NCBI GenBank assembly: GCA_027483445.1
Contig: JAIXUS010000009.1
Span: forward strand, 1-40,194
DNA length: 40,194 nt
Origin: Bacteroidota bacterium
GTDB lineage: Bacteria > Bacteroidota > Bacteroidia > M30B66
Direction of reading: 5' to 3'
Positions 8,826 through 29,549 of the stretch are shown here, in pieces (the first letter of the stretch is position 1; each line of letters opens with the position of its first letter). The notes beneath the pieces were generated by a model that was not told where the DNA came from, made no database searches, and saw only the letters and a program-made list of their open reading frames with translations. The translations under genes and the position numbers were made by a program.

Positions 8826-8877
8826 GGAGACACAACACTCAAATACCCTCATAATTGTTTGGCTTGTTCATTTTTGG

Positions 8878-9018
8878 GCGCCTGCCTCGCTGAGCTTGCC
8901 GTATGGCTGGAGTTAAATCGCCGGGCACCGCGCTTTTCGCTGCTACTCCTCAAACAGAACCCGCGCTCACTCTCGCACTCGCTCTGTTTTGCGGGGTATC
9001 CGCTTCAATCGCTCGCGC
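8878..9018 (+). repeat. Dispersed repeat family A, copy A2
   Basis: This 141-bp copy starts GCGCCTGCCTCGCTGAGC, continues with CGCCGGGCACCGCG, TGCTACTCCTCAAACAGA, a CT-rich run and GCGGGGTATCCGC, and ends GCTCGCGC. It fills the gap between two converging genes (VIT transporter and ABC-F), where no other terminator is visible. It reaches within 8 nt of the ABC-F stop codon. Confidence 0.8.
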
Positions 9019-9025
9019 AATAGCA

Positions 9026-10748: not shown

Positions 10749-10920
10749 CTGCCAGGGATTGCAATGGAAAGCCCGCAACACATGAAGCGCAGCGGAATGT
10801 GTGAGGACTTGCAATGAAAAGCCCGGTGGCCCTTGCCAGGAGAAACTAAATCTTGATTAACCGAAGGTATTACGGTTGACGTTCAAATGGATTATGATTA
10901 AGGTTGCAAGGGCCAGGCAG
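10749..10920 (-). repeat. Dispersed repeat family B, copy B1
   Basis: This 172-bp element is bounded by CTGCCAGG (10749-10756) and CCAGGCAG (10913-10920), inverted ends with one central mismatch. Its first ~95 nt nearly match 14748-14840; the middle differs. A 10-bp stem joins TGGCCCTTGC (10827-10836) to GCAAGGGCCA (10906-10915). An internal hairpin has ACACAT (10778-10783) facing ATGTGT (10797-10802). TTGCAATGrAAAGCCCG occurs twice inside it. It lies in a 315-nt gap directly behind the minus-strand terminator of the adhesin gene. Confidence 0.8.
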
Positions 10921-14747: not shown

Positions 14748-14919
14748 CTGCCAGGGATTGTAATGGAAAGCCCGGAGCACATGAAGCGCAGCGGAATGTG
14801 TGAGGACTTGCAATGAAAAGCCCGGTGGCCTTGCCGGGAGAAAGCGAAATTCAAATGGTAGTTTTGTGGTTGAATGAATTGGATGGCCAACAGTCTCATG
14901 TGCGGGCAAGGCCAGGCAG
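14748..14919 (-). repeat. Dispersed repeat family B, copy B2
   Basis: This 172-bp copy has the same length and orientation as B1. It is bounded by CTGCCAGG (14748-14755) and CCAGGCAG (14912-14919). The stem is TGGCCTTGCC (14826-14835) with GGCAAGGCCA (14905-14914); both arms differ from B1 in a matching way. The middle ~60 nt is unrelated to B1. It sits directly behind the SDR gene's minus-strand terminator. In the 332-nt gap between the adhesin and SDR genes, the only other features are the operator and the terminator. Confidence 0.8.
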
Positions 14920-29297: not shown

Positions 29298-29361
29298 AAT
29301 AGCATTTAAAAAAGGCAATAAAATCTTCCACATTAAAATTCCCAGTTTATTGATTATTTGG

Positions 29362-29549
29362 GCGCCTGCCTCGCTAAGCATCACGTTAAGATGAAACAAC
29401 CTCGCCGGGCACCGCGTTTTCCGCTGCTACTCCTCAAAACAGAGCCGCCCTTGGGTTCCCTTCACCTCACTCTCCACCACTCGCTCTTTCTTCACTCATA
29501 CGTTCACACTCACTCTGTTTTTCGGGGTATCCGCTACAACCACTGGCGC
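29362..29549 (+). repeat. Dispersed repeat family A, copy A3
   Basis: This 188-bp copy starts GCGCCTGCCTCGCTAAGC, then CGCCGGGCACCGCG and TGCTACTCCTCAAAACAGA, and ends TTCGGGGTATCCGC then ACTGGCGC. It is longer than A1 and A2 because the CT-rich middle is expanded with CACTC repeats. It lies in the 379-nt gap between converging recG and the TonB receptor gene. I see no standard terminator in the rest of that gap (29298-29361, 29550-29676). Confidence 0.8.

Follow-up and report, generated by a model that had tools for sequence, protein, structure and literature searches.

The 40,194-nucleotide stretch of Bacteroidota DNA analysed here (the window) contains three intergenic segments that share the same ordered sequence blocks and imperfect inverted-repeat ends. 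An initial annotation proposed that they are copies of a MITE-like or REP-like element or of a structured RNA. The question is therefore what kind of repeat this is (family A in what follows), in which molecule its structure is selected, and how its copies may have been dispersed.

Copies of the repeat in the window

The element under study, copy 2, lies at 8877-9018 on the minus strand and was recovered with 145.3 bits (E 4.8e-27) by R1, a covariance model of the family built from 25 genomic copies. The same model recovered copy 1, a complete element at 1903-2055 on the plus strand (150.1 bits, E 5.5e-28), and copy 3, a complete element with a long apical insert at 29361-29549 on the minus strand (134.9 bits), copy 1 being inverted relative to copies 2 and 3. 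All three segments were thus confirmed, with ends within one base of those annotated. On the motif strand ('F'), the order of the blocks is GCGCCAGCGGGTGCAGCGGATACCCCGCAAAACAGAG, a variable G-rich stretch, CTCTGTTTGAGGAGTAGCAGCGAAACACGCGGTGCCCGGCGATGCAGCCTCAGTGTACCGTGATGCTCAGCGAGGCAGGCGCC, a C and an A-rich tract. The inverted-repeat ends are real and read GCGCC-A-GC and GC-A-GGCGC, with an A.A mismatch between them; the end of copy 2 has one further mismatch (GCGCG).

In copy 2, covariation and the alignment place the 5' arm of a terminal stem, P1, at 9014-9018 (minus strand), where it reads GCGCG instead of the consensus GCGCC. Its 3' arm, GGCGC, is found at 8878-8882 (minus strand) and is followed by a C and an A-rich flank. 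Between these arms lie the stem P2 (8930-9012, minus strand; covariation and alignment to RF01705), which corresponds to the Flavo-1 domain and has two 5'-GNA/5'-GNA internal loops and a variable G-rich apical hairpin, and the hairpin P3, TGCC...GGCA (8883-8927, minus strand; covariation and R1 alignment). Neither this third stem nor the match to Flavo-1 (RF01705) was part of the initial annotation.

In the apical insert (for example at window positions 29440-29520, minus strand), G occurs at nearly every second base over long stretches and the other base is variable. Across the apical inserts of family A, the longest GN run has a mean of 10.5, against 4.9 in shuffled sequences. This period-2 pattern had suggested a (GA)n template altered by adenine mutagenesis, an idea that was given up since the inserts of different copies are recognisably homologous. 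For the C-rich strand of the insert, a Rho-utilisation role was considered as a possibility.

The window also bears two members, not recognised in the initial annotation, of a sister subfamily, B1 (10749-10920, plus strand; R1 47.6 bits, RF01705 23.1 bits) and B2 (14748-14919, plus strand; R1 39.7 bits, RF01705 22.1 bits), which flank a 1212-aa lectin-domain gene, one on each side, and are 96% identical over an 85-nt core. B1 has the same junction as family A and the core GGGATTGCAATGGAAAGCCC...GAGGACTTGCAATGAAAAGCCCGG. As read by eye, P1 is CTGCC/GGCAG in both, and the P3 arms are altered in concert, from TGGCCCTTGC/GCAAGGGCCA in B1 to TGGCCTTGCC/GGCAAGGCCA in B2.

Abundance in the host genome and its relatives

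When copy 2 was used as a blastn query, 53 matches were obtained in the 4.26 Mb host genome (G000), the best non-self match having an E value of 2e-31. With R1, at least 118 copies were detected at E<1e-4, a lower bound since 150 of 1175 candidates were scored; about 65 of them are strong family A copies, and the scores then grade down through sister copies. These matches exclude chance as an explanation for the three copies in the window, which are all real but are only a small part of the total. Family A is a high-copy, non-coding repeat of roughly 140-220 bp.

The covariance-model search was extended to relatives, as the initial annotation had suggested. Other genomes of the same genus carry 70 (G004), 21, 9 and 5 copies, so that within this genus the copy number ranges from 5 to about 120, a more than 20-fold variation. 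The remaining genomes of the family carry 0 to 18 copies, and 0 to 4 were counted in the rest of the class. A spacing of less than 400 bp was seen for five pairs of copies (1.3 such pairs expected), each of them head-to-head. Several copies (L008, L013, L014, L033, L034, L101 and L102) have in common, on their left flank, a CTTTCAACTCGCGAAGCGCATGC-like sequence that may itself be a different dispersed repeat.

A shared three-way junction

All copies share one fold, in which P1 (GCGCC/GGCGC) closes a three-way junction with P2 and P3. P2 is the stem of Rfam Flavo-1, with the same 3-1-2-3-2-3-4 layout, symmetric internal loops and a tip that is variable or absent. P3 ranges from TGCC/GGCA to stems of ten pairs, and P1 occurs as GCGCC/GGCGC, GCGCA/TGCGC, GTGCC/GGCAC, CCGGC/GCCGG, GCGTT/AACGC and GCGTG/CACGC.

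In an alignment of 102 copies (A2), which was fitted to R1 and hence leans toward structure, 98.3% of 2256 cells are paired and 19 of the 23 pairs show two-sided changes. A MAFFT alignment of 25 copies made without structure gave the same pattern, with 27 two-sided and no one-sided changes. None of 500 shuffles reached the observed pairing values, and slid registers came nowhere near them either; as the copies are related, the covariation cells are not independent events. Single copies folded as DNA were no better than shuffled sequences (z -0.07 to -0.93), so the case for the fold rests on covariation. A repeat confined to three copies, lacking covariation and conserved ends, was the outcome that the initial annotation had set against its own proposal, and the data contradict it on every count.

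Relatedness to Flavo-1

At the Rfam gathering threshold, no match was found in the window. Below it, copy 2 matches RF01705 at 8922-9023 with 25.2 bits (E 0.001-0.002; gathering score 42), and it is the only family A copy that this model detected. The Flavo-1 consensus stem, with two 3x3 GNA/GNA loops and an apical hairpin, is supported by covariation across the 102 aligned copies. Family A is also continuous with accepted Flavo-1 members: RF01705 (22-34 bits) detects several sister copies that R1 also recovers (E 1e-7 to 1e-12), and among the R1 matches is a Flavo-1 of Paraclostridium scoring above the gathering threshold. Family A follows the Flavo-1 plan in a diverged and extended form; as it falls below the gathering score, it is treated as a relative and not as a formal member.

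In one Flavo-1 copy elsewhere (L256, 1501-1593), the apical hairpin holds TGAGCGTAGTCGAA, closed by a perfect stem. This hairpin resembles a separate Bacteroidota hairpin repeat, possibly inserted in the tip.

DNA or RNA as the selected molecule

Flavo-1 was described as a probable RNA that is not cis-regulatory (Weinberg et al. 2010, PMC2864571), and the Rfam view would make family A a structured non-coding RNA, either a 3'UTR element or a small RNA, that is incidentally multicopy. The strong covariation, the match to RF01705 and the position of the copies beside the 3' ends of genes, where they may be transcribed, are consistent with this view. The type of base changes is not. Among the changed cells of family A (102 copies), 205 are two-sided and 4 one-sided, and the non-Watson-Crick cells include 5 G-U (about 0.2%) and 14 A-C. 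Since an A-C cell is a G-U pair read from the other strand, neither strand shows a lean toward RNA pairing.

The same was observed outside family A: 24 Flavo-1 copies from other genera of Bacteroidota have 254 Watson-Crick cells and 1 G-U, together with eight A-C cells that all fall in one pair whose register is shifted by a sequence variant; their apical stems contain 277 Watson-Crick pairs and 6 G-U. By comparison, G-U makes up 7.3% of the pairs in 17 control tRNAs (from G004 and other Bacteroidota loci), in which 14 of 130 changed cells are one-sided, a share that differs from that of family A (Fisher p 0.0007); with related copies, such p-values overstate the evidence. Stable sheared G.A stacks arise from GNA/GNA mismatches in DNA as well as in RNA. 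The scarcity of G-U may have other causes, for instance if helices of two pairs set between non-canonical loops were unfavourable to G-U in RNA too.

The near absence of G-U pairs argues against RNA as the selected molecule, and the near-pure Watson-Crick change favours a constraint at the DNA level or on both strands. Moreover, the copies occur in both orientations near gene ends. In F. psychrophilum, Flavo-1 matches show no preference between the sense and antisense strands of transcripts, and many of them are outside transcribed regions (PMC9723704). Of the structured RNA proposed initially, the structure and its Flavo-1 match are therefore retained, and an RNA as its carrier appears unlikely.

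Genomic setting and site turnover

Family A copies are enriched between convergent genes (23 convergent and 5 divergent gaps, p 0.0009), since every genome has about as many gaps of one class as of the other. In 40 of 54 cases, the gene on the 3' side of the element has its own 3' end toward it (the genes in both counts being simple, uncurated ORF calls). The left flank is AT-rich and the right flank A-rich. P1 was rejected as an intrinsic terminator, as flank composition gave no consistent T run past either end.

Occupancy was compared with G004, the closest relative (about 85% identity in the syntenic block). Among 11 host loci with both flanks on one G004 contig, 6 are occupied and 5 have no full copy, the site of copy 3 (29361-29549) being one of these five syntenic gaps. 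At the site of copy 1, G004 bears a complete sister element beside a remnant of an A element, and its left-hand neighbour gene is different; synteny therefore breaks at the element. The intergenic DNA of the two genomes is too diverged for exact junctions to be read, so that their comparison yielded no clean empty site, and the differences in occupancy could reflect loss as well as gain. Target-site duplications, which the initial annotation had suggested looking for, showed no excess over shuffled flank pairs (80 copies).

Wider occurrence and plasmids

Of 296 genomes sampled across the phylum, 39 contain RF01705 matches, and many members of one genus have at least 15. A few exact matches of the core pattern to MAG contigs from other phyla (such as Gemmataceae and Rhodobacteraceae) may be due to chance. 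A phage origin was rejected, with no exact core match in viral contigs and no Flavo-1 match to phage records.

Plasmids of Paraclostridium bifermentans, which belongs to an unexpected phylum for this motif, carry elements that score above the gathering score of RF01705 (50.7-64.2 bits), in some plasmids as an inverted pair. The pairs at L269 (571-647 and 3511-3586) and L314 (2995-3070 and 5808-5884) are head-to-head and lie within imperfect inverted repeats of about 550 bp that flank an amidase gene. Further relatives were seen on plasmids, mostly conjugative, of Bacteroides, Phocaeicola and Parabacteroides, such as p5482 (RF01705 25.2 bits, R1 E 2.4e-5), with P1 and P3 visible. Plasmid p5482 and related conjugative plasmids bear a single Flavo-1-type junction (L312, 1985-2075), annotated inside a hypothetical protein and located about 0.7 kb upstream of a gene encoding an ArdC-like ssDNA-binding protein.

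Such single conserved copies in non-coding plasmid regions are compatible with a site for host or plasmid DNA processing that spread because it is useful: a single-strand initiation site, a primosome or ssDNA-promoter hairpin, or a bidirectional transcription boundary. The copy upstream of the ArdC-like gene on Bacteroides conjugative plasmids, a Paraclostridium plasmid copy about 2 kb from the rep gene, and a bias toward the G-rich strand (24 of 34, p 0.024) point the same way. This bias is weak, however, and the more than 20-fold copy variation within one genus is unexpected for a site that the host needs, which makes such a role less probable still than a structured RNA.

Search for a mobilising enzyme

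No Y1 transposase (PF01797) was found in G000, which is 100% complete, or in G004, the two genomes richest in copies, and it is absent from 3 of 18 Flavo-1-rich genomes; most relatives with few copies do carry it. Three of 40 Y1 loci have an element nearby, on one side only and at a distance of 157-230 bp from the Y1 domain, and no RAYT has Flavo-1 on both flanks. Two of these three Y1 genes are flanked by other hairpin repeats of their own, and the proximity is for this reason best read as chance. Nor was any other candidate enzyme for mobilisation identified.

Bacteroidota Y1 genes were seen with their own hairpin repeats, AACCCCTGCGGGGTTG and TCCCGTAGGGATGACATATCGGTAGAAA (L190, 1100-2000; L324, 870-1080), apparently REP-like families distinct from Flavo-1.

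Mobilisation as a REP-type element by a Y1 tyrosine transposase (RAYT) would fit the REP-like placing 3' of genes, the head-to-head pairs and the three nearby Y1 loci, but with these genomes devoid of PF01797, two of the three Y1 genes carrying different repeats and no RAYT flanked by Flavo-1 on both sides, it is the least credible of the explanations considered and very improbable. The REP-like part of the initial proposal thus keeps its dispersal and loses its cognate RAYT: the complete host genome has none and the repeats at RAYT loci in other genomes are different hairpins, so family A is not a RAYT-driven REP.

Proposed nature of family A

Taken together, these features suggest that family A is a non-autonomous, probably mobile DNA-hairpin repeat of a diverged and extended Flavo-1 lineage, a reading to which we assign a probability of about 0.58. 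According to this model, each copy would encode a DNA three-way junction in which P1 joins both ends, P2 provides the Flavo-1 stem with its two GNA/GNA loops and with a tip that varies freely, and P3 forms a second hairpin. The fold may act as single-stranded or extruded DNA and be recognised by its shape by a putative host or mobile-element enzyme. The element would then be copied or moved to AT-rich or A-rich intergenic sites, insertion presumably being tolerated downstream of genes. A tentative and rather doubtful extension is that the whole Flavo-1 superfamily consists of DNA three-way junctions that are mobile or process-active and whose shape, given by Watson-Crick stems and GNA/GNA loops, is read by an undescribed non-Y1 enzyme, and that this superfamily crossed from Bacteroidota to clostridial plasmids.

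What is new here is the extended anatomy of a known but unexplained kind of repeat and its near-pure Watson-Crick covariation, which makes DNA, and not RNA, the more likely functional molecule. Rfam lists Flavo-1 as an sRNA gene with no known function, and many Bacteroidota genomes carry it dispersed in high copy. If its structure is selected as DNA, these annotations should change, and an undescribed enzyme that recognises hairpins, for mobilisation or DNA processing, would be expected. The near absence of G-U in strongly covarying stems could also serve as a simple test of DNA hairpin versus RNA for other curated motifs.

Comparison with known systems

Like MITEs, family A is non-coding and dispersed and has terminal inverted repeats (P1), which are imperfect and covary. 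It differs from them in that no matching transposase was found and that its internal structure is more conserved than terminal recognition alone would need; it is not a classical MITE, because no target-site duplication was seen above chance.

REP elements resemble family A in position and differ from it in anatomy (PMC3733652). The GTAG/CGTC REPs associated with RAYTs are likewise dispersed and palindromic, lie mostly downstream of genes and occur as paired copies (PMC3733652). Family A, in contrast, is much larger, forms a three-way junction, has no established terminal GTAG or CGTC tag and has no RAYT in its genome.

The closest system is Flavo-1 itself (RF01705, PMC2864571). Family A departs from it by the closing stem P1 and by P3, both absent from the Rfam model, and by its long G-rich apical insert, its GC-rich composition and a score below the gathering score. 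The two are alike in the order of the stem, the loop sizes 3-1-2-3-2-3-4, the GNA/GNA loops, the GATTG/AGCGGA cores and the variable apical hairpin, as well as in their many copies per genome and their occurrence in Bacteroidota.
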